This document shows, piece by piece, positions 4,811 to 63,778 of a stretch of 64,000 bases of DNA. This DNA comes from Vigna angularis (Eukaryota > Streptophyta > Magnoliopsida > Fabales > Fabaceae). The notes below the pieces were generated by a model. It was not told where the DNA came from. It did no database searches and saw only the letters and a list, made by a program, of their open reading frames with translations. Position 1 is the first letter of the stretch. Each line of letters begins with the position of its first letter. The DNA is taken from contig NC_068975.1 in NCBI RefSeq assembly GCF_016808095.1, positions 6,687,501 to 6,751,500 on the forward strand, given 5' to 3'. Both the position numbers and the translations under genes were made by a program.

Positions 4811-5067
4811 ATTGGCACCATAGCTAGTTCTTAAAAATTATTTGAAAAACAAATTGATTAGCCTTGTTGTATAATCGATTTTTCGATCCTCAGATGGCTT
4901 CTGTTTCTCAAACATTGAGGAAGAGTGAATCTGTTTTTGAGTGTGTGCATGTTACGTGTAATGATAAGTGCAATTCAATCACTAATGATTTTTATGAGTC
5001 ACTTGAAGTAGGTTTATTGTGAAATAGAAAAGATGGTATCAATAGACTGGAATCCAAAGTTGCAAGG

Positions 5068-5610
5068 GTGGATTTGCAGGCTGAAAGATTTACTAGATTT
5101 CTCAAAAGGAAGAAAACTGACGAACATCAAAATGATGATGAAAAGAAAGTGAAGAAAGAGAATCTATCAGGAACTGATCTCATCATGATGGCGAAGTCAG
5201 AAACAACAAAAGTGTGTCTGGAACAAGAAGCAAAGGAATCCATGTGGTATCTGGATAGCGAGTGTTTAAGGCATATGATAGGAGATCCAACAAAATTCAT
5301 AAGCATCTCTCACAAGACTACTGGTCATGTCACTTACGGTGATAACAACAAGGGTAAAATCATCGGTATTGGTAAAATCCAAACACCCTCAACATATAAA
5401 ATTGAGAATGTTTTGCTTGTTGAAGGTTTGAAACATAATCTGCTTAGTATTATCCAACTGTGTGACAAAGGATTGAAGATATCGTTTGAACCAAACTATT
5501 GTCTGATAAGTAATGGGTCAACAAATGAATTACTATTAATTGGAAACAGATACAACAATATTTACATGATTGACTTTAGGAAAACATATTCAAATATGTT
5601 GTATATCTAA
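5068..5610 (+). pseudogene. Copia gag end and aspartic protease remnant
   Basis: A 180-codon open stretch. The second third contains MWYLDSECLRHMIGD, the copia protease active-site context where a D-S-G triad is expected; here glycine is replaced by glutamate, so the protease should be inactive. The following part, with VLLVEGLKHNLLS and ISNGSTNELLLIGNRYNNIYMID, is the usual linker to the pre-integrase domain. Upstream, a lysine-rich piece is all that remains of gag. The frame ends in a stop just before the pre-integrase region. In family members this is part of one long gag-pol polyprotein. Confidence 0.85.
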
Positions 5611-5624
5611 TGTCTAAAGAAGAT

Positions 5625-6367
5625 GATGCATAATTATGGCACAAAAGACTAGCTCACATTAACATGGGTCAGTTAAACAAACTTGTGTCTAAGGATCTTG
5701 TTATTGGTCTTCCAAACATACGTTATGCCTCTAACATATTATGTGACGCTTGTTAGAAAGGGAAACAAACAAGAATGTCTTCAAAAAATAAAAGAGAGGT
5801 GTCTACTACTAGACCCCTTGAATTATTACATATGGACTTGTTTGGTCCCTCAAGAGTCGGAAGTCTTGGAGGAAATCTGTATGGTTTGGTGATTGTTGAT
5901 GATTTTTCTCACTATACCTGGACTTTCTTCATTTCTGCCAAAAGTGAAACTTTTAGGGTGTTCAAGAAATTTGCTGCTATGATTCAAAACGAAAAGGAAC
6001 TCGGGATAAAGTCCATAAGAAGTGATCATGGAAAAGAATTCCAAAATAAGGTGTTTGATGACTACTGTGTGAAAATGGGAATTTCGCACAACTTTTCTGC
6101 ACCAAGAACCCCTCAGCAGAATGGAGTTGTAGAAAGGAAGAACAAAGCATTGGAAGAGCTGGCAAGAACTATGCTTAATGAGAGAGACTTACCAAAGTAC
6201 TTCTGGGCGGATATAGTAAGCACAACTTGCTACATGCTTAATGTGATCAGATCAATGCTGAGACTCACTCCCTACGAGCTGTTCAAGGGAAGGAAGCTAA
6301 ATATCACACACCTGAGGATTTTTGGATGTAAGTGTTTTGTTCTTAACAATGGTAAGGAAATCCTAGG
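5625..6367 (+). pseudogene. Copia integrase (5' part, cut by solo LTR)
   Basis: A pre-integrase zinc-binding remnant (LWHKRLAHINMGQLNKL) is followed by the rve-type integrase core: LLHMDLFGPSRVGSLGG (first Asp), SIRSDHGKEFQN (second Asp) and TPQQNGVVERKNKALEE (Glu). All three acidic catalytic positions are still visible. At least one stop falls in the zinc-binding part (CDAC followed by a stop). The coding sequence runs directly into the 5-bp target duplication CTAGG of the solo LTR and resumes after it in the same frame, so the LTR insertion came after this region formed. Confidence 0.9.
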
Positions 6368-7493
6368 TGATAATAGTTGAAAAACTGTTATTTTTATACT
6401 TAAAGTTGACCTTAAAGACAACCTTTATGACTTAGAAACTAGCTTAGAATCATGTTTTTGTTTATGTTTTGGAACTCAGCGGAAATTACCGTTGAGCGGT
6501 GTTTTGAGGTCCCGTAGCCACCGTTGAGGGGAAAATACAGCTGAACGTCAAACAGAGAAAACGCACTTACCGCTGAGCGCCATTCTTATGGGCTTGGGCT
6601 TACTTTTCTGTAATTTTTAGAATAGTATATAAGGTTTTAGTCGACCTAGGTCAGTTATCTTTGGCTGGAACGACGCAAAATACACTTTCTTCACCCCTTG
6701 GAGGAGGATTTTGGATGCTCAAGCTCCACTCTTCAAATTCTAGGGTTTTATCTTTCATTCTTCCATTGTTTTTCATCTAGTTTCACCATGAATATGGTGA
6801 ACTAAGCCTTTATTGTTGTTGGGGAATCAATGTAATCCTTTGAAACTCTCATGTATTGAATTGGTTCTTTAATATGTATGCTTTCTTTCATTAATTGATA
6901 GGGTTTTTCCTCTTTGCTCAATGCATGCTTTGTTTAACTCATTCTATTGCATGATTATTGATTTTGTCGATATGGACACATACGTGGAAATCTAGATCTG
7001 GGGAATCTCTCCCAATAGTAGTATAAACCTAAACATAGGAGTATGATAATTGACTGCCTTTAAAATTTTGTGAGAAATAATGCATAAATAATTGCTAGGG
7101 AGACAAGACATTGTAAACTAGTGATTGTGAATAGGCTTTCTTCACCAAGACATTGGGTTTAAGGTAATTTAGAAAGTGGCATTAACATTAATGAAGAAAG
7201 ATGAATTCTTTAATACATGAGAGTGGATAGGATGAAATTGATAAACCCCAACAACATAATCATTCATATAATTTCAATCACGCTTTGCTTTTTCCGTTCC
7301 ATTGATCAATATATGCATTCATATTTACTTTTTAGTAATTTGCATTTAAAATCTCAAAGAATTGGTTTTACAAGTCTTAGATAATCAAAAAATCACATAA
7401 CTGTCTAGGCCGTGAGTCCTTTGGAAGAACAATACTTGGTCTTACCAGTTTTATTACTTGATACGATTCGGTTACACTTGTCGAGGGTTAACA
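6368..7493 (+). mobile_element. Solo LTR inside the copia integrase
   Basis: It begins TGATAATAGTTGAAAAACTG and ends GGGTTAACA, flanked by perfect 5-bp duplications CTAGG (6363-6367 and 7494-7498). Removing it rejoins the integrase reading frame. It is 1126 bp and belongs to the same LTR family as the complete element at 36937-44309 (shared start, shared CCGTTGAGCGG-type palindromes, shared TATAAGG and CACCATGAATATGGTGAAC blocks). No internal sequence remains, as expected after LTR-LTR recombination. Confidence 0.93.
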
Positions 7494-7771
7494 CTAGGAA
7501 AGTTCGATTCAAAAGCCGATGAGGCTATCTTTATTGGTTATTCTCTTACCATTAAAGCTTATAGAGTATATAACAAAAGAACTATGTGTATTGAGGAATC
7601 TGTACATGTAGCATTTGATGAATATATTGATACTACTATTAATCAAATGCATTCCAGAAAGTCTATAGATGCAGGTGATTCTGTAGGAGAGGAAGAGGAA
7701 AACAAAGAAATTCAAGAAGAGGAAATTTCTGAGAATACAACTGATCCTCCTAAAGAATGTATCAACCAGTA
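7494..7771 (+). pseudogene. Copia integrase C-terminal region
   Basis: After the target duplication the frame continues with KFDSKADEAIFIGYS, a conserved block of the copia integrase C-terminus, then an acidic linker rich in glutamate that normally connects integrase to reverse transcriptase. It ends at a stop. Together with the segment before 6368 it forms one interrupted coding region. Confidence 0.88.
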
Positions 7772-8890
7772 ACATCATAGGAGACATCACGAGAGGAGTT
7801 TCCACTAGGCAGCAACTCAATCAATTTTGTATGAATGTTGCATATGTGTCTAAGATTGAACCCAAGAATATTGAAGATGCACTTACTGATGAAAACTAGA
7901 TGATGATTATGCAAGAAGAGTTAAATCAGTTTAAAAGGAACAACGTGTGGGAACTGGTTCCAAGAATAGAAACTCAGCAGGTGATAGTCACAAAGTGGGT
8001 TTTTAGAAACAAAATGGATGATTCAGGAGAAATCGTCAAAAATAAGCAAAGTGCTACAGTCAAGAAGATGGAATCGATTATGATGAGACTTATGCTCCTA
8101 TGGCCAGATTGGAAGCAATAAGAACTCTGCTACCCACAGCTTCAGTGATGAGGTTTAACTTGTATCAAATGGACATAAAGGGTGCATTTCTAAACGGGTT
8201 TATTAAGGAAGAAGTCTACGTTGAACAACCACCAGGTTTTGAAGATTATGAGTATCCAGATCATGTCTTCAAACTGAAAAAGGCTCTGTATGGACTGAAA
8301 TAAGCACCAAGATCTTGGAATGAACGTGTAAGTGAATTCTTAATCAAGAAAAAGGGTTTATAAGGGGTAAAGTTGATTCAACCCTTTTCATCAAAAACTC
8401 TAAAAGTGATAAATTATTTGTGCAAGTTTATGTTGATGATATTATATTTTGTTCAACTAATCCTCTACTATGCAAAGAATTTTCTAAGACAATGCAAAAT
8501 GAGTTTGAGATGTCCATGATGGGAGAACTCACCTATTTTCTGGGACTTCAAGTAAAGCAAGTTGAGAGTGGCATTTTTAGACAACAATCCAAGTATTGTG
8601 CTGACTTGTTGAAAAAGTACAAGATGCTAGACTACAAAGAAGCTACCACACCTATGGCAACAAATTGTTATATTGACCTTGATGAAAAAGGCAATGTTGT
8701 AGATCAAAAACTTTTTAGAGGTATGCTCGGATCTTTGTTATACTTAACTACTAGTAGGCTAGATATCATGCATAGTGGTTGTCTTTATGCTAGATTTCAA
8801 TCAAAACCAAAGGAATCACATTTAACTACTGTGAAAAGAATTTCAAAGTATCTAAAAGGAACCAAAAGTCTTGGACTATGGTATCCTAGT
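7772..8890 (+). pseudogene. Copia reverse transcriptase
   Basis: RT motifs occur in order: a degraded N-terminal block (NNVWELVPR, TKWVFRNK), LYQMDIKGAFLNGFIKEEVYV with the first catalytic Asp, KLKKALYGLK, then the QVYVDDIIF box with both Asp residues of YVDD, and YFLGLQVKQ. A frameshift lies near 8060-8100, a stop follows YGLK at 8301, and the next 110 bp contain another stop before the YVDD part opens at 8420. The 157-codon open piece at 8420-8893 is the longest intact part. It encoded part of the copia polyprotein; it is no longer functional. Confidence 0.92.
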
Positions 8891-9382
8891 TGATCAAACA
8901 TTTTTTTAGAAGGTTACAGTGACTCAGACTTTGGTGGTTGTAAGTTAGACAGAAAAAAATCCAGTAGTAGATGTCATCTGCTAGGATGTTCTCTAGTATC
9001 TTGGCATTCAAAGAAACAAGCTTGTGTGACACTATCTACCACAGAAGCTGAGTACATTGCAGTTGGAAGTTGTTGCGCTCAGTCTCTTTCGATCAAGAGC
9101 CAACTAGAACACTATGGTATAGCTTTAGATCATATTCCTCTAAAATGTGATAATACCAGTGTAATAAACTTAACTAACAATCATGCTCTTCATTCTAAGA
9201 CAAAGCATATTGAAATAAGGCATCATTTTATAAGAGATCACATCCTTAAGGGTGAGATTAAAATTGAATATGTAGATACCTTGCATCAATGGGCTGACAT
9301 TTTCACAAAATCTTTGAATAAAGAAAAATTTTATACTATTAGAAATGATTTGGGAATTCTGGATCATAGTAGTATAAAATAG
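8891..9382 (+). pseudogene. Copia RNase H
   Basis: The frame continues past the stop at 8891 with YSDSDFGGCKLDRKKSSS, the RNase H start of copia elements, then VTLSTTEAEYIAVGSCCAQ with the conserved Glu, DNTSVINLTNNHALHSKTKH with the conserved Asp, and the end DIFTKSLNKEKFYTIRNDLGI. The final 118 codons are uninterrupted and stop at the normal polyprotein end. Confidence 0.92.

Positions 9383-22622: not shown

Positions 22623-22674
<52 letters not shown>
22623..22674 (+). repeat. 52-bp uninterrupted poly-G tract
   Basis: Fifty-two consecutive G residues at a position where copia relatives have a short GGGGGA run. It may be a real expansion or an assembly or sequencing artefact, for example a polished low-complexity gap. 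Confidence 0.95.
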
Positions 22675-36936: not shown

Positions 36937-38242
36937 TGATAACAGTTGAAAAACTGTTATTTTCATGCTTAAAATTGATACTAAAAGCAACCTTTAGACT
37001 TAGAAACTAGCTTGAAATCATACTTTTATCCATATTTTCAGAAATAAGAGAGCTGGACAGGTTTATGCTTGATTTCAGTGTTTTTGTGCAGATTTTAAGG
37101 TGAATTTAGTGAAAGAAGTGAAGAATGAGAGAGAGGGAATCAGAAAAGGAATCAAAGAGTGCAAAAAGAGAAGTCGCAATTGCCGCTCAGCGGCAGTTTA
37201 CCGCTGAGCGGCACTCAGAAGCTCACGGGAGGACCGCTGAGGGGCAAAATGGCCGCTGAGGGGAAGAACCGAGCTGACGCACTTACCGCTGAGCGGTAGT
37301 TTACCGCTGAGCGGCACTTTAATGGGCTTGGACCTAATATTTTGTAATTTACGAATGATATATAAGCTTTAGGGTTTCCTAGGGTTAGGCATCTTTGGCA
37401 GAAACGAGGCAAACACTCTCTCTTCCACCCCTTTGAAGGAGGATCTTGGATGCTCAGGCTACCTCTTCACCTTTTTAGGGTTTATTCTTTCATACTTTCA
37501 TTGTAATTCATCTAGGTTCACCATGAATATGGTGAACTAAACTTTGTATGTTTGTTGGGGAATCAATGTAATCTCTTGAAGCTCTCATATATGGAATTTA
37601 TGCTTGCATCTTAATCTAAGATTTATGCTTTCTTTCATCATTAGTTAAGGTTTTTCCTCTTTGCTTAATGCTTGCATAGTTTAACTCATTCAATGCATGA
37701 TCATTGGTTTTGTCGATACGGGAACGTACGGGGAAGTCTAGATCCGGGGAATTTCTCCCAATATTATATTGGTTGTCGTTAAGCTCCTGCACTTATGAAC
37801 TAATCATTAGGAATGCTAGGAATTGTATGAACTCGTGATTAGGGAGAAGCCATCTAGAATGGTACTTTAGAAAGTGGCATTAACAATGATGATTTGAATG
37901 TTGAATTCCTAAAATGTATGAGAGTGGATGAGATGAAATTGACCCCCAACAACATATTTATTCATATATTTCATTGAAAGTGTTTATCTTTTGTCTTTGC
38001 CATTGATCAAACTTCATGCATACATGTTTATTTTGTTTTTCGTCTTGCATATAAAAATCCAAATATTTCGTTTGTAAGTCCTAGCTAATCAACAAATCAC
38101 ATAACTAAACTAGGCCGTGAGTCCTTTGGGAGGAACGATACTTGGTCTTACCAAGTTTATTACTTGAACGATTCGGTCATACTTGCCGATTGAAAAACAA
38201 GTTTGTGACATCATATTTTGGTGCTTACAAATTTGTCCATCA
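36937..38242 (+). repeat. 5' LTR (1306 bp)
   Basis: It starts TGATAACAGTTGAAAAACTG, with the inverted CAGTTGAAAAACTG making a small terminal hairpin, and ends TTTGTCCATCA. At 37170-37320 it has at least six CCGCTNAGCGG or CCGCTGAGGGG motifs, and downstream a TATATAAGC box (37360) that may be the promoter. It is 18 bp longer than its partner because of one extra CCGCTGAGCGG unit. Confidence 0.94.
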
Positions 38243-39645: not shown

Positions 39646-40517
39646 CTGTTTGTTTATTTTAGTTAGGATTTGCATAAGCATGTTTAACATTGAATTGTAG
39701 GGAACCCATGAGGGGCATGTAGGGAAGACACGTAGGTTAAGAAAAGAAGGAGAGGAGCACATCACGAAAGTGCCGCTGAGCGGTATTTTACCGCTGAGCG
39801 GTATTTTACCGTTGAGCGGTACTCTCGCAGATTGGGCTTTAGTTCCCCTTAGCGGGACCCGAGCCCATTAGGGTATTTTTAAACCCTAAGCTGCGCAAAG
39901 TCTTATACTTTCTGGCTTTTCTCTGCACAAACACTTCCACACACCTTCTCCTAGGTTTTCCACATCTTTTCACTTTTCCCTCTTAAGAAAATATCTCTTC
40001 CACTCACTTTTTCACTAGTGTGCTATCAAAGTTTGGGGTTGGAAGAGAGCATTCTAACTTGGAAGCATTCTCATTGCATCTAGCATCTCCACCCAAGTAA
40101 GTAAAATGCATTTTGTTCATTCTAGGGTTCTTGAATTTGAATATGATTGTCAAAGCATGAATATTTAGGGGTTTTGATTTCTATGCATGATTTGATGATA
40201 TATTTGATGTTTGAACCGATTAAACTGCATGATTATGAACTGGAAAACTGAAAATTGCATTTGGGTGGAGTTAGGACAGCTTTAAAATAGGTTTTTCCAA
40301 AATCTGCAGAGTTACCGCTGAGGGGTAATCTGCCGCTGAGCGGCACTCTGCCAGATTTGATTTTTCTGAAATTTTGCGTGTTGGAATGTGGCACTGGTGG
40401 CGCTGAGGGGAAATTCTGGCCCTCAGCGGTGGTTTAGCTTCGAAAGGAGTTGTGTTCTGTGTTTTACTAATGATTAACATCATGTTCTGTGGTTTTGTGT
40501 GTGTTTTGAATGTAGGA
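39646..40517 (+). other. Leader of the plant transposon protein gene
   Basis: No open frame. Clusters of CCGCTGAGCGGTATTTTA occur at 39770-39825 and 40315-40435. TTTTAAACCC and TTCTCTGCACAAAC near 39880-39925 may mark a second promoter. A probable intron starts at CCCAAGTAAGTAAAATG (about 40097) and ends TTTTGAATGTAG (40516), just before the ATG. Confidence 0.5.
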
Positions 40518-41753
40518 ATGGCATCTTCATCAGGAAAAAGATTGAAAACCATGGCAACCAAGAGAAAGGAAAAGGAACCAGAGCAACCCCATTCTGGCAG
40601 GTTCCTCTCAAGGAAACATGAGAAGCACTTTAGGGTGGTTCAGGACAGGAGACTTCTGATGGAGAGAAAGGTTGGAATGATACCTAACTTTGCTCCTCAA
40701 TTTGGAGAGCAAGTGTTAGGGAATGATTGGGGAAAGCTAGCCACTTATCCTGCACCTGCCAACATAGCTGTGGTGAAGGAATTTTACGCCAATGCAAAGA
40801 AGATTGGTGATTATCCAGCTGAGAATTATTTGGGCTATGTCAGAGGCCATGCTATCAGGTATGATCCTGATTCTATCAACAACTTCCTGGATACTGTGTG
40901 GGTTGGTGAGCAATGTCAGTTTGCTCTTTGCATGGAGGAAGGTGCTGATTTTGAGGATGTGGAGAGAGTGTTATGTATACCTGGAGGACACTTTCAAAGG
41001 AATAGATCTGGCTCAGTGGTTAACATTAGGAGGACAGATTTGACTCCTCTTGCAAAATATTGGATGGCATTTTCTCATGCCAACATTCAGCCATGTTCAC
41101 ATGTGTCAGATATTACTCTCAGCAGGGCACTATTCATCTACTGTGCTATCAGAAATTTGAATGTTAATATTGGGCAGGTGATAGCTGATGAAATTAGTGT
41201 ATGTGCTAACACCTCAAACAACAAAGCACCACTAGGACATCCTTCTTTGATTACTCACCTTTGCAAGCTAGCTGGGGTGGATACTTCTGTTCCACCATTT
41301 GAGAGGCCAAGAAAAGCTATTGATGAGGCCTATTATAGACAGTACTGTGGAGGTGAGGATGTAGCTCAGCCAGTTCCACCACGCCGTGCTCGTGGAGAGA
41401 GAGGGCCAGCACAGAGCCAGACATCTGCTGATACACATGAAGCAGAACCATTTCAGATGAGGGACATGTATATGTCTCTTATAGGTGCTCAGTTGCAGTC
41501 CATTCACAGAGGGCAGGTGGCCACTGCTGAGATGATAGTGGGGATGTATGATACACCTCCAGCCCACAGGTGGACTATGGATGAATTCCACAATGTAGTA
41601 GCTTGGCCAGAAGATCCAGTACATGGAGGAGGAGCTGGAGCAGCTGAAGCTTCAACTAGAGAGATGGAAGAAGATGAAGCTGAGGAGGAGGATGCATTTG
41701 ATGATGATGAAGATGAGGTGGAAGAGGAAGATACAGAGGACAACTTAGACTGA
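40518..41753 (+). CDS. Putative plant transposon protein (Transposase_32-like)
   Basis: The frame opens at 40452, but the Met at 40518 (MASSSGKRLKTMATKRKEKE) directly after a splice-acceptor-like TGAATGTAG is the better start, giving 411 residues. A basic N-terminus (1-45) is followed by a globular region with RDRRLLMERK-like text, FAPQFGEQVLGNDWGKLATY, VVKEFYANAKK, YDPDSINNFLDTVWV, VNIRRTDLTPLAKYWMAFSH and NKAPLGHPSLITHLCKLAGV. This pattern is that of the family named putative plant transposon protein (Pfam Transposase_32, as I recall). The last 45 residues are almost all Asp and Glu. Its biochemical role is unknown. A broken copy lies at 62715-63778. The intact frame in a recently inserted element suggests it matters for the element. 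Confidence 0.75.
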   Translation: MASSSGKRLKTMATKRKEKEPEQPHSGRFLSRKHEKHFRVVQDRRLLMERKVGMIPNFAPQFGEQVLGNDWGKLATYPAPANIAVVKEFYANAKKIGDYPAENYLGYVRGHAIRYDPDSINNFLDTVWVGEQCQFALCMEEGADFEDVERVLCIPGGHFQRNRSGSVVNIRRTDLTPLAKYWMAFSHANIQPCSHVSDITLSRALFIYCAIRNLNVNIGQVIADEISVCANTSNNKAPLGHPSLITHLCKLAGVDTSVPPFERPRKAIDEAYYRQYCGGEDVAQPVPPRRARGERGPAQSQTSADTHEAEPFQMRDMYMSLIGAQLQSIHRGQVATAEMIVGMYDTPPAHRWTMDEFHNVVAWPEDPVHGGGAGAAEASTREMEEDEAEEEDAFDDDEDEVEEEDTEDNLD

Positions 41754-44314: not shown

Positions 44315-46526
44315 GGCTGCGGGTTTCTGTAAAACCGAGGTAATATCGTTTGGTTTATTTTTTCCAAAGTGATTTACAGTTCTTAGTCTTCCACCAGAGT
44401 TTTCTCTTTGACCAGCCGTTCTTTCTCTTCGACCAGCCCTTCGATTTCTCTCCGACCAAAGACCAAAGCCAAACGCGAACTGCTCCGTGCATCCACTGCC
44501 GTTTCGATTTTTGTCGCGCGTGGCCTTTGTCGTCTTCTCCGTGCATCCACCGTCGTGCCGCTACAGTTCCACCCGCTCCTTCACCTCCATTGTCTCCGGC
44601 GAAGCGCTATCCAGGTTGGGTTGCTCTATTTCTCTCGCGAACAGTAGGAGTATTCTCTCCAAGCGTTGCTTCTGCCATCGTTCCCGCCTCTCCACCGTCG
44701 CTCCACTACCTTTGCTGCCGTTGTTTGCCGCCACGGTAAGTTCTTTACAATTTCATTTGTCTGTGGTGATTGATATTTGTTTGAATGAAGAAAGGAATGT
44801 CTGTGGTTATTGATATTGGTTTTTTTCCCTGATTTTTTCCCCTTGATTGGAATTAATTTTCCCCTTGATTGTTTGAATGAAGAAAGGAATTAGTGATTCT
44901 GTAATTAGTGCACCAGATTTTCGATCCATGCTTGGCTTATTTCTTATTGTATCGAGACAGTGGTGGTAGTATTTCTTGGCGTGTACGTTGGGTGGTGGAA
45001 GCTGACTATTCACGAAATGGGACCCAAACTTGGAACAACATCAAGTGTTTTTTGTTTGGTGGTGGAAGCTGATGATATCTTTCCTTTGTTTTTTGTTTTT
45101 TTTTACCTGCCTTTGTTGTCAAGACAAAAATGATAAGCTTTGAAATTTGTATTCTTTGTTATTCTCTTTTGTGTATGAGATATCCTTCTGTTTTGGAAAA
45201 TAATACAAAATGTAGCAGGCAAATCATATACAGTGAGAAACCGGATAGAGGAAATTGAATATTCTTCTGTTTTTTCTTCTCACCATTTCCTTTTAAATCA
45301 AGAGTCCCATTTCTTCAACCATTTTAGGGTGTCTCGCATGTGGAACTTGGAATAATGCTTGAGAACCTCACATGCCAACTATCACATAATTCACAAAAAA
45401 TGAAACAAAATGGGACTTACTCTGTACAATTTTAAAAAATAGAACCATATTGGACGAAAATGGAATCAACATTGGCATGCAGATACAGAAAAATAAAAAT
45501 TAATTATTTAGAATACACTATGCAGATATTCTGAATACACTATTTAGAATTTACAAAAATAAAAATATGAATTAAAAATTTAACATTAAATAAAAATAAA
45601 TTAAATAACATATAAGGAAAAAAATACTTTTAAGTCTTAAAGTTATATTTACCAATTCACTTATATGAGTCATTCTAATTACTTCTAATTATAATTAAAT
45701 AAAAAAATATACTCTGAGAGTGGTAAGTGGTTAAGAAAATTAGGTAAAGAAGTAACAGGTTAATTTAAGAGGTTGGAACGAAAATGCACCTTATCAAGAG
45801 AATAAAAGATATGAGAATTTTACTATTTAAATGGGGTAATGCAATTTATAATATGAAAAACTCTGAATTAACTCGTAACTAAATTTAAAATTTTAATAGT
45901 TATGAAAAACATTTCATAGTTGCTTTTAATAGTATTTGATTGATATTTGTCTGTGTTAAATTTTAATAGTCCTTTGCTTTTATTTGATGTTGTATGTAGC
46001 ATATGTAATTATTTGCTTGTTTGGATATATTCTTGTTTTTAATTAGCCTTAGATTCCTGTTTGAGATTCAATACAGAAATTATTTACTATCTCCAGATTT
46101 TTATAAACAAATATACTTTTTAAAAATGAATACAAAGGAGATGGTAATAATAATTTATAAGAATTGAATCTTGAATTGTCCGACTGGACAGTTTAAGAAG
46201 AGTAATAACTTTTTATAGTTTATTATAACATATCAATTTTAATATATATGTCTAAATTCATGAAAATTTACTGTTGTGTTTTGTATTGATCTTCGGGTGC
46301 ATATTTGATTGTGATTTATAATCACTTTTATTTCGTGTAACCTGAAGACCAATGCGAAATGCTGGCAAAATTTCGTGAAATTTAAGATATGTTGTTTAAA
46401 ATTGATATGTTTAATAAACTAAAAAAAGTGAATCTTCTTGAATGGGATAGGGTCACACCTTGAATACAAACACGATCAAAGTGATCATTCAAGATTATTG
46501 AAATTGTGTAAACAATTTCAGTAAAC
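44315..46526 (+). other. CACTA leader exon and intron
   Basis: A last CCGAGG repeat at 44334 is followed by a pyrimidine-rich, GC-richer stretch (44400-44730) that ends GCCGCCACG-GTAAGTTC, a good splice donor. It contains open frames of about 80-130 codons in several registers, more likely untranslated leader than protein. From 44740 to 46526 the DNA is AT-rich and looks like an intron running to the transposase start. Confidence 0.55.
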
Positions 46527-49500
46527 ATGCGTACGGATAGAGGGTGGATTAATTTACCACGCATCAGCACTGAGTACGAGAGAGGGGTAGAACACTTTAT
46601 AGAGTTTGCGCAACGTAATGCGAGTAGAAGTGGTGATGATGAAGTCAAGTTCAGATGTCCCTGTGTGAACTGTTTGAATGGGAGGAAGTTGAACGCAACT
46701 GATATTAGGGAACATCTTATCTGTGATGGTTTCATACGAAGTTATACAACATGGATATGGCACGGCGAATTAACAGACTTTCCAACTGTCTCTCCAATTG
46801 GAAATGTTTATGATTTCACAATGGATATGGAAGATCAAGCAGAAGAAGACAACTTAGAGGACATGATCCGCGATGTTGGCGCAGAAGCTTTTGCCCAAGC
46901 GCATGTGTATGAAACGATGTCCACTGATGCGAAGACTCCTCTATATGCGGGTTCAACTAAGTTCACACGGTTGTTAGCGGTGTTAAGGCTCATGAATTTA
47001 AAGGCGAGCAATGGATGGAGTGATAAGAGTTTTACAGAATTGTTGTCGTTGTTGAATGAAATGCTGCCAGATGGAAATACGTTACCCAATCGTAATTATG
47101 ATGCAAAAAAAATTCTTTGTCCGATGGGTATGGAATATAAACGGATACATGCATGTCCGAATGATTGCATATTATATAGGAATGAGAATGAAGTTTTGAT
47201 AGAGTGTCCAAAATGTGGGTTATCACGATACAAGTCAATAAACAACGGTGAAGATGGTGGTCACACAGAAAAGAATGGTTCTGCTTTGAAAGTAGTTTGG
47301 TACCTTCCACTAGTTGCCAGACTTCAGCGTTTGTTCGCGAATCCCAAAGACGCTAAAAACTTAAGATGGCATGCAGATGAGAGAACAACTGATGGGCTGC
47401 TTCGTCATCCAGCTGATTCAAAGCAATGGAAAATTATTGATCAAGAATTCCCCCAATTTGGTGAAGAATGTAGAAATCTAAGGTTTGGCTTAGCTACTGA
47501 TGGAATGAATCCATTTGGTAATTTAAGTACCAATCACAATTGTTGGCCCGTTATACTGATAATTTACAACTTATCTCCTGGATTGTGCATGAAAAGAAAG
47601 TACATGATGTTGTCAATGTTGATATCTGGTCCAAAGCAGCCTGGAAATGACATCGATGTTTATCTAAGGCCACTAGTTGAAGACTTGAAGTTGTTGTGGG
47701 TTGATGGGGTTGAAATATTTGATTCCTTTGCTTCAGAAACTTTCATGATGCATGCCATGTTATTTTTCACCATTAATGACTTCCCAGCTTACGGTAATTT
47801 GTCAGGGTACAGTGTGAAAGGTCATAAAGCATGTCCTATATGTGAAGAAAACACTGCAGCTCAACAATTAAAACACGGAAGAAAGACAGTGTATATGCGT
47901 CATCGACGATTTTTACAATCTAATCATCCATATCGAAGGTTAAAGAAAGCATTCAATGGAGAACAGGAGAAAGACAATGCACCCATTCCACTTACTGGAC
48001 TTGAAGTTACTGAGAAAGTTAATAGAGTACATCATATATTTGGGAAAACGTCGAAGAAGTCTTCTGTAACGACCCCTTGGAAGAAGAAATCAATATTCTT
48101 TGATCTTCTATATTGGTCAAAGTTAGATGTTAGACATTGCATAGATGTCATGCATGTTGAGAAAAATGTGTGTGATAGCTTGATTGGTACACTACTAAAC
48201 ATCCAGGGAAAAACAAAAGATGGAGTGAATGCGCGTTTGGATTTGGTTGACATGAAGATCCGAGAAGAGTTGGCACCAAGAGAGATTGGTAAACGTACTT
48301 ATTTGCCCCCTGCATGTTACACAATGTCCAAACAAGAGAAAATAAGTTTTTGTCTTTGTTTAAAGAGTATGAAGGTACCACAAGGATACTTTTCAAATAT
48401 CAAGAGCTTAGTGTCAATGCAGGACTTAAAGCTTGTTGGACTGAAGTCTCACGATTGCCACGTCTTGATGCAACAGTTGTTACCAGTGGCAATTCGTGGA
48501 ATTTTTCCCAAAAAAGTTAGGCTGACCATAACTCGATTGTGCTCATTTTTCTCGTCAATTTGTAGTAAAGTCATCGATCCTACAAAGTTAGATGAACTTC
48601 AAAGCGAAATTATCATCATCTTATGTCAACTAGAAATGTTTTTCCCTCCATCCGTTTTTGACATCATGGTGCATTTACTTGTTCAATTGGTCAGAGAAAT
48701 AAAGTTGTGTGGACCAGTATACTTAAGATGGATGTACCCTATTGAGCGTTATATGAAGATTTTGAAAGGGTACGTCAAAAATCAATATCGTCCAGAAGGT
48801 TCAATGATTGAAAGATATATTGCTGAAGAAAGTATTGAGTTTTTGGTCTAAGTATATGACTAAAGCAAATCCGATAGGAGTCCGTCGGACATCATGGTTG
48901 AGTAGATATTCTACAAGTAAAAGCATCCGAGGTGTGAATGTGGTGACGAAAAGTCGTGAAGAATTGATGCAAGCACATCTGTACATATTAAACAACACAG
49001 ATGAAGTGATCCCATTTTTGGAAGCACACAAAGCCGTTGTAAAGGACAACTATCCACGACAATTAGAGAAATGGCAGTTGATGGAGCATAACAGAACATT
49101 CTTGTCCTGGTTCAAATCTGAAGTTTTGAAAGAATCACGATCCTCTGAGACTTTGTTGTGGTTAGCAAATGGCTTGAAGTTTGATGTTGTATGTTGTACA
49201 GGCTACGAAATTAATAATTGCACATTCTATACAAAGACTTTGGATGATAAAAGCACAGTACAAAATAGTGGCATCAGTCTAGAAGCTGAGTCGCTACAGT
49301 TTTCCACATCCAAAGATCAAAATCCTATAGTTGGATCCATGAGATACTATGGTAGAATTGAAGAGATATTTGAAGTTGATTACACTAAGTTTTTCGTTGC
49401 ACTCTTCAAATGTAAGTGGGTAGACAATAAGAGTGGTGTCAAAATAGATGAATCTGGTATGACACTTGTTGATTTTCGAAAGGTTGGTTATAGAGACGAA

Positions 49501-49818
49501 CCGTTCATCATGGCATATCAAGCAAGTCAGGTTTTTTATGTCAAAGATCCTGCGTCTGACCATTGGTATGTTGCTCTCCAAGGAAAAAGGCAAATTGAAG
49601 ATAAAGAAGAGAATCTAAGTAATCTTCATATCGCTGACAGCCATCCATTTAAAACGACAATAAATTTGGATGACGACCCTCTAATTGATGATATACAAGC
49701 AATACGAGAAGATCACAATGAGGGAATATATATACGATCAATCCATATGATTATGTATGAATTTCATGTTTGTGTAAATATTTATGGCTTTTGTTTTATA
49801 ATATATGTTATTTTATAA
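46527..49818 (+). pseudogene. TNP2-type CACTA transposase, frameshifted
   Basis: The protein starts MRTDRGWINLPRISTEYERG with a transposase-associated zinc domain (residues about 1-85, FRCPCVNCLNGRKL). The tnp2 transposase domain spans about 190-500: CPMGMEYKRIHACPNDCIL, ECPKCGLSRYK, WHADERTTDGLLRHPADS, FGLATDGMNPFGNL with the expected catalytic Asp, LISGPKQPGNDIDVYLRPL, KGHKACPICEENT. LDVRHCIDVMHVEKNVCDSL and a DUF4218 region follow (to 775). At 48838-48842 one extra T in a TTTTT run shifts the frame; the next frame continues with SKYMTKANPIGVRR and a DUF4216 region (CKWVDNKSG, VFYVKDPASDHWYVALQGK). In active elements this protein cuts CACTA ends. Here the shift removes the C-terminal 300 residues; the core domain itself is intact. 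Confidence 0.93.
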
Positions 49819-56198: not shown

Positions 56199-56541
56199 TG
56201 ATTTAGGAAATCAGGGAACCAAAACAGATCACTCTCTTCTCATACCACACTCAAAACAACAAAAGATAAAAATATATGTATGTATTTTATTAAATCTTTA
56301 ATGTAAAGAAAGAAAAAATACAAGTAAGTATCCCTAAAGGAAGTCTCACTTACTCCACTGAAAATATGTCCAGTCGATACCCAAAAGAAAAAAAATATTT
56401 GATTACCCTTTCTCCATCTATTATGTTTTTATTTATACTCTCTCTCTACTAACAAACTAACCTCTTTTCCCGCCCTTAATTTCCTTCCCTTTTATTCCTT
56501 CTCTTTTATTCCTTCTCACGTATACCTTTAACTTCCTAACA
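56199..56541 (-). repeat. 3' LTR of the gypsy element
   Basis: The plus strand reads TGATTTAGGAAATCAGGG through TTAACTTCCTAACA and aligns along its length with 59477-59811, with many substitutions and a small duplication of TTTATTCCTTCTC. Confidence 0.85.
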
Positions 56542-57180
56542 TTACCCTCCTCCCCAACCTCAACCTTGTCCTCAAGGTTGGAACCATGAAACTTGATCTC
56601 ATGGATCCTTTTCATAATTGTGTTATCATATGAAGAGAACCCACTAGCTACTACCCTCCAATTTAGGTCTGGAGGCTTGGGTGGTGGTAAATCCTCCTCC
56701 AATGTCTTCCATTCTTCTTGCATTCAATTAACTTCTAGCATTTCATAAATGGAGTTAGCAAGGGAAGATTCAGATAATGCCTTCCTAAAATAAAAAAAAT
56801 ATTTGATTACCCTTTCTCCATCTATTCTGTTTTTATTTATACTCTCTCTCTCTACTAACAAACTAACTTCTTTTCTCGCCTTTAATTTCCTTCCCTTTTA
56901 TTCCTTCTCACGTATACCTTTAACTTCCTAACATTACCCTCCTCCCCAACCTCAACCTTGTCCTCAAGGTTGGAACCATGAAACTTGATCTCATGGCTCC
57001 TCTTCATCATTGTGTTATCATATGAAGGGAACCCACTAGCTACTACCCTCCAATTCAGGTCTGGAGGCTTGGGTGGTGGTAAATCCTCCTCTAATGTCTT
57101 CCATTCTTCTTGCATTCAATTAACTTCTAGCATTTCATAAATGGACTTAGCAAGGGAAGATTCAGATAATGCCTTCCTAA
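56390..57180. repeat. 392-bp tandem duplication of LTR end plus pol tail
   Basis: The block containing the inner part of the 3' LTR, the polypurine tract and the pol tail is present twice (about 56390-56785 and 56787-57180; CATTCAATTAACTTCTAGC at 56721 and 57113). Both copies keep the short frame beginning MQEEWKTLEEDLPPPKPPDL, which joins pol-tail sequence NLEDKVEVGEEGNVRKLKVY. The copies are about 97% alike by eye. Confidence 0.85.
56542..56565 (-). promoter_or_regulatory. Polypurine tract of the gypsy element
   Basis: On the minus strand GGTTGGGGAGGAGGGTAA lies directly before the 3' LTR. It overlaps the end of the pol-tail frame (EVGEEGNV), as is usual in gypsy elements. A second copy is at about 56934. 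Confidence 0.8.
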
Positions 57181-57346
57181 AGAAAGCTACGGGCCTCTTG
57201 CTTTGCGACAAAACTAGCCCTACTCTAGTGTTAGAAGCCTCACACTCCACGTAGAAGGTTTGGCCAAAATCGGGTAGAGCCAGTACAGGGGCTGTAGTAA
57301 CCGCTTCCTTGAGTTTCTGCATAGCTTCCGCTCCCACTAGGGACCA
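57116..57346 (-). pseudogene. Gypsy RNase H remnant fused to demethylase
   Basis: The last 76 codons of a 211-codon open frame (57751-57116). They match the start of the Ty3 RNase H region: WSLVGAEAMQKLKEAVTTAP, VLALPDFGQTFYVECEAS, RPVAFFRKALSESSLAKS, YEMLEV. The motif usually written TDAS reads CEAS here, replacing the first catalytic Asp with Glu. The join with the demethylase part is in frame, between ...ALLKGMFK and WSLVG. The frame ends at the start of the duplicated 392-bp block; the rest of RNase H and integrase are lost. Confidence 0.85.
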
Positions 57347-58862
57347 CTTAAACATTCCCTTTAACAAAGCTTCACGAATTAAAATTTGAGCACCATCTAA
57401 AGAGTTCTTGTACATTATGTTAGAAAGTTCTACTACATCAAGTCTCTTTATTATATCCCTCACTTCATCCCTTTCCATGTCTAACTGTCCCTGTACAGCT
57501 TCCAATGGCTCCACCTCAGCAATATAATCATCTTCAGTGCTTAATATGTCAATTTTGCGAATAGACTCTCGTAGTCCACTCATCATTGCACCACCAACAA
57601 CATATGTGTGCTCTTGGCAGGTTACTTCACCAGAAAAAAACAAGTAGTTATCAACTGGTATCCCTAATATATCATAGTCTTCTCCTGAGGCTCCAACCGC
57701 AACATTAGAATAAGCACCATAGCTAAAAGTATCCCTACCCCAATCAGTCACAAAATAGGCAACAGGATCTGGAATTGAATCCTACCCAAAAGGTTTTCGG
57801 AGAACCTTCAATGCATGTTTAACATGATCATAAGAGCTCAAGCTTTGACCATTTAGGGCTTATTTACCAACCACTAATGCAATAAGCACAAGAGCCCCAA
57901 TTGTTTTCCTAACATTCCATAACATAAAGTAGTGACCTCTACTGTTTCTCTCCTCAACTGCTGCTCCAAAGTAGTCCACAACATCATCCCAAAATACACT
58001 AGAAAATTCCAAAGCCACTTTATTTAGAACTCCATAACCAAGACACTGAACAAAAGAATATTTCCATTGTGGCAAAAGTCGGGAGAACTGTATAGTTTCA
58101 GCCTTCAAACAACCAAGTAGAATAATAACAAGGACAACACCACCAAAGAACTCATTGTCATTTGCTATAGAAACTTTGACTTTATAACTTTGACCAGGCT
58201 CCTTGATACCATATGACACATTTGTTACAACGTGGTTCAAGGGAATTGTAATTCCTTCTCCCAGGGACTCAACAACAGAACAATAACCCTCTTTAATCAT
58301 ATAATGAGCTCCTCCGAAACCCTCATACACATCATCTTGATTATAGTGGGGAAGAGAAACATCATTAAGTGAAGCAGCACAACCATACTCCAAATGATCA
58401 GAGTGCCAATCCATAACCCTCCTCTCCTAAGGGCTCAAAATCTCCTCATCAAGCTTTTTTTCCACAATATTGTCCCTTTTGGAATCAAATGGTCTATGTG
58501 CAGAATTATTTTGTTCAGTTTCTTCACTACTTTCGGTGCGTGCAGTATGTCGAATCTTGAGACCATATTCTAAACCGTCTTCAAGAGACATTTTCATTGT
58601 TTGTTCACCTTTCGAAGCAACAACCAATACAATGTCATCTATAAGGGTATTATATTCAGCTTCAAGTGCTTTATCCATATCTGTAGGAACTTTTTGTTCT
58701 GTTACTATGTCATAAAGAGGGCAATCATTGTTCAACATTGTCAACTCAAGGCCCAACTAAGCACAAATCAACGAGGAAGAATCTGATCTTCACTTAGTGG
58801 CCACATCAGCCTCAACACCTGATATAATGCTACCTCCAAGATCGAAAGGGATAGAAAGTGAG
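57347..58862 (-). pseudogene. Captured LSD1-type histone demethylase segment (LDL3-like)
   Basis: About 505 codons in one frame match the amine-oxidase domain of plant lysine-specific histone demethylase homolog 3, as I recognise it. Blocks in order: FDLGGSIISGVEADVAT, LGLELTMLNNDCPLYDIVT, ALEAEYNTLIDDIVLVVA, a variable linker, YGCAASLNDVSLPHYNQDD, GAHYMIKEGYCSVVESLGEG, LGYGVLNKVALEF (Lys equivalent to the flavin-contacting Lys of LSD1 enzymes), WDDVVDYFGAAVEERNSRG, then the FAD-binding end FSGEVTCQEHTYVVGGAMMS. Nonsense codons occur near 58805, 58770, 58427, 57860 and 57786, all in frame, with no frameshift. It lies between gag and RNase H. The N-terminal SWIRM part is absent, and no intron is evident. 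Confidence 0.88.
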
Positions 58863-59473
58863 GACTGATATGGTTTACCCGATGCTTGCGGCTCCAAGAT
58901 TTCAAACTCTTGGATGTACTCGTTGACGCTTCCTTTTTGTCGCACCGCTACCAGGTTCTAAAAAATAATGCCCTGATTTAGTTCGCCAAACCTCCACGTT
59001 AGAGCGTCGGTGAACATCTTCTAAGTCGGATGTCTATTTTTCTTCTGCGAGAAGCGGAACCAATAGCTCGCGCCTCCCTTCATGCATATATAGACGAGCT
59101 TCATCTTCTCCTTCTCTGTAATGCTCTAGAGGTCTAAGGATTTCTCCGCCTTTGCGAGTCAGCCCATGGGATCCGCACTTTCAAATGTAGGTAGTTCAAC
59201 GCGCTTCATCCCACTACGTTGAACTTCTCCTTTGTCTTATTTCGATCCATCTTCCAAGTTTTTCGGTAGTCGTCGTTCCTATTCTGCATTGAGGGAATCA
59301 CGGCTTCCTTCGGAACTTCGATTTTGGTTCCTGGTTCGTCGTCCAAGAGCTCGTTGGAATTCGTAAGTCATCGCTCGCATCTCCACCTTCATTTCTTCCA
59401 CTGTCGACTCAATCGCCATCACTTGTCCCTCCATTCTTCTTCTCTCTGCAACAGATCCGGCAGGTCGGACCAA
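58863..59473 (-). pseudogene. Gypsy Gag remnant
   Basis: It starts MVRPAGSVAERRRMEGQVM just inside the 5' LTR. The minus-strand frame then reads MKRVELPTFESADPMG, EKMKLVYICMKGGASYWFRF, FTDALTWRFGELNQG and AVRQKGSVNEYIQEFEIL, the usual gypsy gag order (substrate-like PxFxGxDP-W region, YxxxG..YWF, FxxL..RFG, QxGSVxEYIxxFE). About six in-frame stops interrupt it, and it passes without a shift into the demethylase at about 58862. No zinc knuckle is left; the join removes it. Confidence 0.85.
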
Positions 59474-59476
59474 AGT

Positions 59477-59811
59477 TGTTAGGTTCCTTTATTCAAGGAA
59501 CCAAAACATATCACTCTTTTCTCACACAACACTCAAAACAGCAGAAGATAAAAGTATATGTACGTATTTTATTAAATCTGTAATGTAAAGAAAGAAGAGA
59601 TACAAGTAAGTATCCCTAAAGGAAGCCTTCCTTCCTTCACTGGAAAATATGTCCAGTCTAATACCCAAAAGCAAAAAAATATATGATTACCCCTTCTCTA
59701 TCTATGTTGTTTTTATTTATACTCTCTCTCTACTAACAAACTAACCTCTTTTCCCGCCTTTAATTTCCTTCCCTTTTATTCCTTCTCACGTATACCTTTA
59801 ACTTCCTAACA
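59477..59811 (-). repeat. 5' LTR of the gypsy element
   Basis: 335 bp, plus strand TGTTAGGTTCCTTTATTC through TTTAACTTCCTAACA. The outer terminal inverted repeat TGTTAGG/CCTAACA is perfect. On the minus strand TATAAATAAAAAC (about 59710) could be a TATA box. Confidence 0.87.
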
Positions 59812-62715: not shown

Positions 62716-63778
62716 GCTTCGTCCCACCTATGTGCTGGAGGTGTATCATACATCCCAATAATCATCTCAGTTGTGGCCACCTACCCTCTTTGAATGGATT
62801 GCATCCTAGCATCTATAAGAGACATATACATGTCCCTCATCTAAAATGGCTCTGCCTCATGAGGCTTTGCAGATGTCTGGCCCTATGGTGGTCATCTCCC
62901 TCTACGAGGATGGCGTGGTGGTACTGGCTGAGCTGCCTCATCACCTCCACAATACTTTCTGTAATAAGCCTCATGAATAGCTTTCCTAGGCCTCTCAAAT
63001 GGTGGTGCCGAGATATTCACCCCAACTAGCTCACATAGGTGTGTAATCAAAGAGGGATGACCCAAGGGTGCTTTGTTGTTCATAGTGCTGGCACACACCT
63101 GTATCTCATTAGCTATGACATGGCCAATGTTAATGCTCATCCCTCTGAGCACACAGTACAAAAGAAGTGCCCTACTAACAGTAATATCCAAGACATGTGA
63201 GCACGACTGGATGTTGGCATGAGAAACTGTCATCCAATACTTTTCTAGAGGAGTCAGATCAGCTCTCTTGATGTTCACAACTGCACCATTCCTGTTTCTC
63301 TGAAAGTGCCCTCCAAGCACACATAGCACACTCTCCACATCACCAAAGTCCGCTCCTTCTTCCATATTTAAAGCAAACTAACACTGCTCACCAGCCCATT
63401 CAGTATCTAAAAATTTGTTAATGGAATCAGGATCATACTGAATGACGTGTCCTTTAACATAGCTCAAATAATCCTCAGTAGGATGATCACCCAATCTCCT
63501 TGTGTTGGTGTAGAATTCTTTCCCACTGCTATGTTAGCTGGTACAGGATAAATGGCTAGCTTCCCCCAATTCCTGTTCTCCAATTTCTCTCCAAACTGTG
63601 GAGCAAAATCAGGTTTCAGTCCAGCCTTCCTTTCCATTAATAGCCTCCTATCTTGGATAGCATTGAAGTGACGCTCATGCTTGCGGGAAAGGAACTTGTT
63701 GGAGTAAGAGCGGTATGGTTCCTTATCCTTCCTCTTTGATCCCAAAGTCTTAATCCTCTTGCCCGATTAGGAGGTCAT
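62715..63778 (-). pseudogene. Broken putative plant transposon protein gene
   Basis: The start Met lies at 63778, with a stop at codon 4. The frame reopens (63745-63464: FLSRKHERHFNAIQDRRLL, FAPQFGEKLENRNWGKLA), shifts near 63500, reads YDPDSINKFLDTEWAGEQC with a stop, then 63365-62892 is open for 157 codons (MEEGADFGDVESVLCVLGGH, NIKRADLTPLEKYWMTVSH, NKAPLGHPSLITHLCELVGV). The remainder (MRDMYMSLIDA, GMYDTPPAHRW) has two more stops and ends in the displaced LTR fragment, so the acidic tail is lost. It is the homologue of 40518-41753. Confidence 0.85.

Follow-up and report, generated by a model that had tools for sequence, protein, structure and literature searches.

A decayed Ty3/gypsy retrotransposon of Vigna angularis carrying a captured LDL3 fragment, with signs of other host-gene cargos among its relatives

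How does part of a host chromatin gene come to lie inside a retrotransposon, and does what the gene encodes matter to the element? The question is raised by a locus within 64,000 nucleotides of the Vigna angularis genome (contig NC_068975.1, positions 6,687,501 to 6,751,500), a stretch referred to here as the window. At 59811-56211 on the minus strand lies a broken Ty3/gypsy long terminal repeat (LTR) retrotransposon, with an interior of 2.9 kb between its LTRs, that holds a fragment of an LDL3-type histone demethylase gene between gag and the remains of pol. We think it likely that this is a non-autonomous element whose gag is in frame with a 505-codon LDL3 fragment, a nearly neutral passenger that was likely acquired once, probably by template switching of reverse transcriptase (RT), and that helpers would have spread. 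The parts of the element are as follows.

59477..59811, minus strand: 5' LTR of 335 bp, with ends TGTTAGG...CCTAACA; partner of the 3' LTR
59456..59472, minus strand: putative primer binding site, its TGG start a few bases past the LTR, by inspection
58865..59434, minus strand: gag remnant, with stops at 59281, 59239, 59161, 59128, 59023 and 58960
57350..58864, minus strand: captured LDL3 fragment (P0003 residues 208-712), with stops at 58792, 58759, 58429, 57862 and 57784
57134..57349 (start approximate), minus strand: RNase H remnant of pol, from a profile match and similarity to P0100
56936..57133, minus strand: pol 3' end, the remaining RNase H and integrase deleted; terminates in a purine-rich tract
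56784..56933, minus strand: first half of an LTR, within a 392-bp tandem duplication
56542..56774, minus strand: RNase H end and pol end repeated (second unit of the tandem duplication), with a purine-rich tract at its end
56211..56541, minus strand: 3' LTR, its terminal ~16 bp degenerate

The LTRs are paired and have TG...CA ends, except that the 3' LTR is not recognisable over its final ~16 bp; they enclose gypsy gag and RNase H, as the original prediction of a Ty3/gypsy element on one strand between LTR-like ends had it. By inspection, a TGG start lies near the 5' LTR and a purine-rich tract precedes the 3' LTR. The gag remnant (59434-58877) aligns without gaps over 186 codons to V. angularis P0136, at 64% identity and with six in-frame stops (P numbers denote proteins or open reading frames [ORFs]). 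The match of the window gag to Pfam Retrotrans_gag (2.1e-4) is under the family cut-off; its assignment as gypsy-type follows from the identity to P0136, a protein that itself stands above the Pfam cut-offs for Retrotrans_gag, Ty3_capsid and RVT_1. The RNase H remnant matches RT_RNaseH_2 of Pfam (1.1e-14; score 54.7 bits, cut-off 29.8) and is 76% identical to V. mungo P0100 over 82 codons, in an alignment that overlaps the joint with LDL3. A single reading frame runs through all three parts, whose alignments are each free of gaps, and the window DNA is unbroken and without N.

Protease, RT and integrase have no match in the window copy, and the portion of pol that would lie between gag and RNase H is absent at the insert; the middle of pol has been replaced, as predicted. 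Since the RNase H remnant is the only pol domain left, we class the element as a non-autonomous derivative. A Pack-type DNA transposon or Helitron was ruled out, as LTRs, gag and RNase H surround the cargo. The LTRs are 92% alike, with 16 transitions, nine transversions and three gap runs over 317 aligned sites (Kimura two-parameter [K80] distance, 0.084). If substitutions accumulate at between 5.2e-9 and 1.3e-8 per site per year, this divergence places the insertion at 3 to 8 million years ago.

At 57166-56475 on the minus strand, the pol end and one half of an LTR occur twice, in a 392-bp tandem duplication; like the in-frame stops, it is an addition to what the original prediction described. 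Between its copies, 7 of 231 sites differ in the internal part and 6 of 148 in the LTR part, against 25 of 317 for the LTR pair, and because they differ less than the LTRs do, the duplication looks younger than the insertion. We rejected the possibility that it formed part of the capture for the same lower divergence. The inner end of the duplication falls at a T-rich stretch that is alike in LTR and pol. The tail offered a candidate for another captured gene ('EEWKTLEEDLPPPKPPDLNW'), which was also rejected; by eye it is the pol end in another frame, resembling the pol ends of P0062 and P0142. Rfam gave no match.

The captured piece itself (58864-57350) comprises 505 codons in the same sense as gag and is 81.8% identical, without gaps, to P0003, an unannotated host ORF that serves as its reference and comes from contigs no longer than 75 kb. 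Identity is flat along the piece, at 83, 82, 82, 83 and 82 of 101 residues in successive blocks. The piece matches Pfam Amino_oxidase (2.4e-42), and the solved structures that match it best are LSD1/KDM1A (6e-57) and, next, KDM1B; with E-values of this order, chance similarity can be ruled out. Among the matches listed are plant relatives, from Hibiscus, Striga and Phoenix, that bear the name "lysine-specific histone demethylase 1 homolog 3", and because they carry the LDL3 title we take LDL3 as the parent family, in agreement with the LDL3-type assignment first proposed.

One alignment spans the whole captured stretch in 55 of the 102 proteins from the LDL3 protein search. Seven unannotated host ORFs that we aligned run unbroken through that stretch, up to '..LN(S/T)WIL', and diverge beyond that common point, as they would at an intron, whereas the annotated protein of Cajanus goes on past it. 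P0021, which is among the seven, is on an 84.6-Mb contig and hence genomic. From these alignments it appears that a single long exon of the host contains the captured stretch and extends past both capture ends. The original prediction had proposed an RNA-level capture and the absence of introns as a check, evidence that turns out to be uninformative: with the stretch apparently within one host exon, the absence of introns in the window cannot tell an mRNA source from a genomic DNA source.

To place the window copy among its relatives, we considered annotated Vigna proteins from two protein searches, with 7995 candidates scored in one and the best 120 of 177 in the other, so that the counts are lower bounds. 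At least 14 proteins besides the window bear an LDL3 piece, nine from V. mungo (P0062, P0073, P0075, P0078, P0079, P0087, P0091, P0096 and P0132) and five from V. angularis (P0072, P0080, P0085, P0093 and P0130). The window's gag|LDL3 joint (..EILVxQASGKPDHSSLS..) is present in 8 of the 14, from both species (P0072, P0073, P0075, P0078, P0079, P0080, P0087 and P0130), and it is through the recurrence of this joint, at the protein level and without LTRs in view, that amplification of the cargo is known. Exits from LDL3 fall into groups that are likewise represented in both species: four proteins pass into the protease region 'GLxIxDKLYLF' (P0062, P0075, P0079 and P0080), and six pass near 'D(I/V)IKR' to the RNase H sequence 'SSLAK' (P0073, P0078, P0085, P0091, P0096 and P0132). 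P0072 joins an earlier LDL3 point to the same RNase H end as the latter group, perhaps via a predicted intron, and P0087, P0093 and P0130 show no 3' joint to pol. One of the V. angularis proteins, P0085, starts as a glycosyltransferase (Glycos_transf_2, 8.9e-35; named dolichol-phosphate mannosyltransferase) before its LDL3 cargo; this could be either another cargo or an element inserted in a host gene, and as a single gene model it could run into a neighbour.

A tree was built from the 21 rows in which 200 or more columns were aligned (nine cargo and 12 host; six shorter cargo rows were left out). Cargo rows split from hosts at 93, and cargo together with P0003 split from Cajanus and the remaining hosts at 100. 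At residue 624, hosts have K and all 11 copies that cover the position have Q. A single capture after the Cajanus split, followed by spread, would fit these alignments best. A protein search with gag as the query returned 15 proteins, every one of them from V. mungo or V. angularis. No relative of P0073 or P0003 was found among viral contigs, none of P0073 among genome contigs, and none among plasmids by megablast.

LDL3 is not the only host gene represented in these proteins. A 14-3-3 piece is present in P0087, P0130 and P0093 (Pfam 6.5e-25, 4.1e-18 and 5.3e-43, respectively), with LDL3 on both sides of it in P0130, before it in P0087 and after it in P0093; P0087 and P0130, from two species, exit LDL3 at the identical place. 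In P0078, LDL3 again stands on both sides of another cargo, here part of a kinase (Pfam 4e-25) whose closest solved structure is calcium-dependent protein kinase 3 (4.1e-20). Pieces of RNA-dependent RNA polymerase occur in P0091, P0096 and P0131 (1.1e-32, 1.1e-35 and 9.5e-24), of phytochrome B in P0131 and P0142 (6e-44 and 3.1e-10), and of beta-galactosidase in P0142 (9e-71); neither P0131 nor P0142 has an LDL3 match. The beta-galactosidase and kinase cargos are known from one gene model each with that domain. Two single gene models, either of which could run on into a neighbouring gene, may be mentioned beside these: P0145 of V. mungo, a gag model with a coiled-coil-like stretch before the pol end that lacks a Pfam match and is perhaps host cargo, and P0091, which has a MORN tail.

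The arrangement of these pieces bears on the order in which they arrived. P0096 and P0091 run from gag through RNA-dependent RNA polymerase to what we read as the DFG remnant of a kinase, and then to the tail of LDL3, and both have in common with P0078 the joint between kinase 'TYIK..' and LDL3 'QSYxIKVS' as well as a deletion in LDL3 whose end is at 'GAxAEERN'. The simplest order of events would be LDL3 first, the kinase then entering LDL3, and finally a union with a polymerase-bearing relative. On balance we favor the view that this Vigna gypsy lineage is a cargo-swapping retroelement, in which the slot between gag and the pol 3' end may have been filled in turn by exons from six or more genes of the host (LDL3, 14-3-3, a CDPK-like kinase, RNA-dependent RNA polymerase, phytochrome B and beta-galactosidase), with later cargos inside earlier ones and cargo lineages recombined.

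How might such pieces be acquired? Host mRNA would have been co-packaged and joined to the element during reverse transcription, and different cargo lineages would later have recombined with each other. Granted the remainder of this account, template switching in reverse transcription is the capture step toward which we lean. RT and integrase may have been supplied by elements of the P0136, P0139, P0141 and P0100 types: P0136 and P0139 have gag, protease and RT; P0141 has a matching gag, with protease and RT among its precomputed domains; and P0100 has RNase H, with integrase and chromodomain matches below their cut-offs. Residues are alike at some joints, as between LDL3 'LLREMF' and pol 'LLKKGMF' and between polymerase 'SVAD' and kinase 'ANFG', a protein-level likeness that is suggestive of template switching. 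Abnormal template switching in plant LTR elements has been published (PMC1950507; PMC13317346).

Capture at the DNA level is a possible alternative, and one we hold to be appreciably less probable. An element may have inserted in or recombined with an LDL3 exon, or repair may have joined an exon piece to it, with the resulting chimaera then transcribed and amplified. No intron needing removal is apparent in the stretch, and plant retrotransposons are also reported to transduce flanking genomic DNA (PMC13317346). However, retroelement sequence flanks the piece on both sides with the joints in frame, and the further cargos after gag in relatives are less easily explained by repeated chance repair.

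Whichever way the piece was acquired, it could have consequences for the host. Transcribed cargo might give rise to small RNAs that act in trans on host LDL3, an effect by sequence and not by protein. An open frame would be unnecessary for this, and LTR-captured genes of rice and sorghum are reported as sources of small RNAs (PMC3726574). The 18% protein divergence of the window copy from P0003 would, however, limit pairing, and we regard such an effect as unlikely.

A functional cargo is harder still to sustain. In this explanation, a Gag-LDL3 protein acts on methylation of histone H3 lysine 4 (H3K4) or as a dominant negative, and the element escapes silencing. It draws on the preservation of the frame over both joints, the presence in the captured piece of the LNK-motif lysine, which we take to be K661 of human LSD1, and the inclusion of copies as proteins in the annotations of V. 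mungo and V. angularis. Yet the capture begins at P0003 residue 208, leaving the GxGxxG motif that binds flavin adenine dinucleotide (FAD), at residue 167, outside the captured piece, and the piece has five in-frame stops, where the host residue is Q at three, R at one and A at one.

Constraint on the cargo was assessed at the protein level by comparing columns invariant among 12 host sequences with variable columns, stops being scored as differences. Of the 290 host-invariant columns, 51 are changed in the window copy, and of the 215 variable ones, 41. The hosts used as controls, three in number, differ at 5 of 233, 8 of 298 and 7 of 297 invariant columns and at 25 of 173, 58 of 206 and 54 of 208 variable columns; pooled, the hosts stand at 20/828 invariant versus 137/587 variable, a ratio of ~0.10. 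For the 15 cargo copies pooled, the figures are 460/2267 and 395/1527, and the ratio of 0.78 reflects a weak deficit at host-invariant columns that could be taken to favor function. Changes common to at least three of the 15 copies, which we take mostly to predate single insertions, fall on invariant columns in 36 of 67 cases, with 57.4% of columns invariant. Judged by these protein-level comparisons, change in the cargo has been close to that expected of a passenger, under little constraint. In gag, each of 13 copies changes less at the columns (within 61-186) that are invariant in six cargo-free gags, and 12 of 22 new gag residues common to at least three copies are on invariant columns, with 59.5% of columns invariant.

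Because the GxGxxG motif is outside the capture and change is near equal at host-invariant and variable residues, the window copy is no working demethylase cargo. Nor do the sibling cargos have a silencing link in common, as those of phytochrome B, beta-galactosidase and a kinase are unconnected to chromatin. The families of LDL3 and RNA-dependent RNA polymerase are tied to silencing, and four of the six cargos are without such a tie, for which reason we take the chromatin role of LDL3 as coincidence; six cargos make no statistical test. The appeal of a chromatin-modifying cargo, which the original prediction had stressed, therefore fades, and we consider a functional role very improbable. An assembly or annotation artefact linking retroelement and host exon is scarcely credible: although the relatives were modelled automatically, and sequence seems to be skipped in P0072 and P0073, perhaps as predicted introns, the window DNA is continuous, and the fact that annotated proteins of both V. 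mungo and V. angularis show the gag|LDL3 joint again speaks against an error at that junction.

Several observations weigh against our preferred account of a helper-spread passenger acquired once by template switching. A search for other copies with both of the window's junctions had been suggested, and its outcome was divided: the 5' joint recurs as described, and the 3' joint is found in none of the 14 LDL3-bearing Vigna proteins. The chimaeras are known from annotated proteins, that is, from gene models that may hold predicted introns or run into neighbours. Among the relatives seen, no single protein has a complete gag-pol. By eye, the flanks have no matching 5-bp target-site duplication, the 3' LTR end being eroded and the boundary uncertain. 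With the piece seemingly in one host exon, DNA-level capture fits that piece equally well. Constraint is also above zero, as 13 of 15 copies vary somewhat less at invariant columns, one equally and one more, with the largest deficits in P0130 (12/116 versus 27/83) and P0062 (36/215 versus 47/182).

Host-gene capture by plant LTR elements is already known from Bs1, a few other cases and genome-wide lists. The maize element Bs1 is without a complete pol and has gag fused to cargo. It is the closest known case to ours, being likewise an LTR retrotransposon that has taken up pieces of host genes, namely, those of a proton ATPase, a xylan endohydrolase and a beta-1,3-glucanase, in a chimaeric gene (PMC13317346, PMC7264820). 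The Vigna family differs in that, as far as annotated proteins go, a single gag family, present in two species, has lineages with differing, nested cargos in the slot after gag; the window copy has one cargo and is dead. In rice and sorghum, 672 and 1343 LTR-captured genes are reported, many of which decay to pseudogenes (PMC3726574). Those are host genes in LTR elements likewise, drawn up as genome-wide lists, whereas the Vigna case is one traced capture with a common joint, a named parent and a test of constraint. A plant retrotransposon moving a host gene is also seen with Rider and sun in tomato (PMC13317346), a transduced locus with a known phenotype, in contrast to the truncated, internal part of an exon described here, for which no effect is shown. 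In Vigna, the cargo is enclosed by LTRs, gag and RNase H, whereas Pack-type Mutator-like elements (MULEs), Pack-type CACTA elements and Helitrons are DNA transposons. These depend on helpers. Their copies, too, carry varied host gene pieces (PMC13317346). No paper on a Vigna gag-LDL3 family was among the matches listed from open-licence PubMed Central full text, most of them judged by title and the opening of the abstract.

Elsewhere in the window, other mobile elements are in evidence. On the plus strand, Ty1/copia pieces at 5023-8893 (rve, 1.3e-15; RVT_2, 3.7e-18) are fragmented into several ORFs, and CACTA-type transposase ORFs lie at 46512-49818 (Transposase_21, 1.9e-93; DUF4218, Transpos_assoc and DUF4216). 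The latter are two ORFs that overlap in different frames, and the gene is accordingly read as split by a frameshift or an intron. ORFs of the "Putative plant transposon protein" family PF20167 are present at 40407-41753 on the plus strand (2.2e-67) and at 62892-63377 on the minus strand (2e-38). Repeat motifs of the GCTGAGCG / CCGCTGAGCGG kind are scattered at 37279-37321, 39773-39821, 40315-40352 and about 61490-61340. A run of 52 consecutive G at 22623-22674, within an AT-rich stretch, is possibly a sequencing or assembly artefact.

Taken alone, the element in the window belongs to a known kind, and it is the multi-cargo, nested family that goes further. One capture can be traced via a common joint through two species to a named parent, and nested sister cargos suggest an order of events. 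The case also counsels caution in assigning a function to a silencing enzyme because a transposon carries it, as this cargo is without its cofactor-binding half and under little constraint. A few Vigna genomes could show whether capture takes place at the RNA or the DNA level, how frequent it is and whether the cargo matters. If our reading is true, the cargo-swapping lineage would be an RNA-level counterpart of Pack-MULEs, repeatedly shuffling host exons by template switching.

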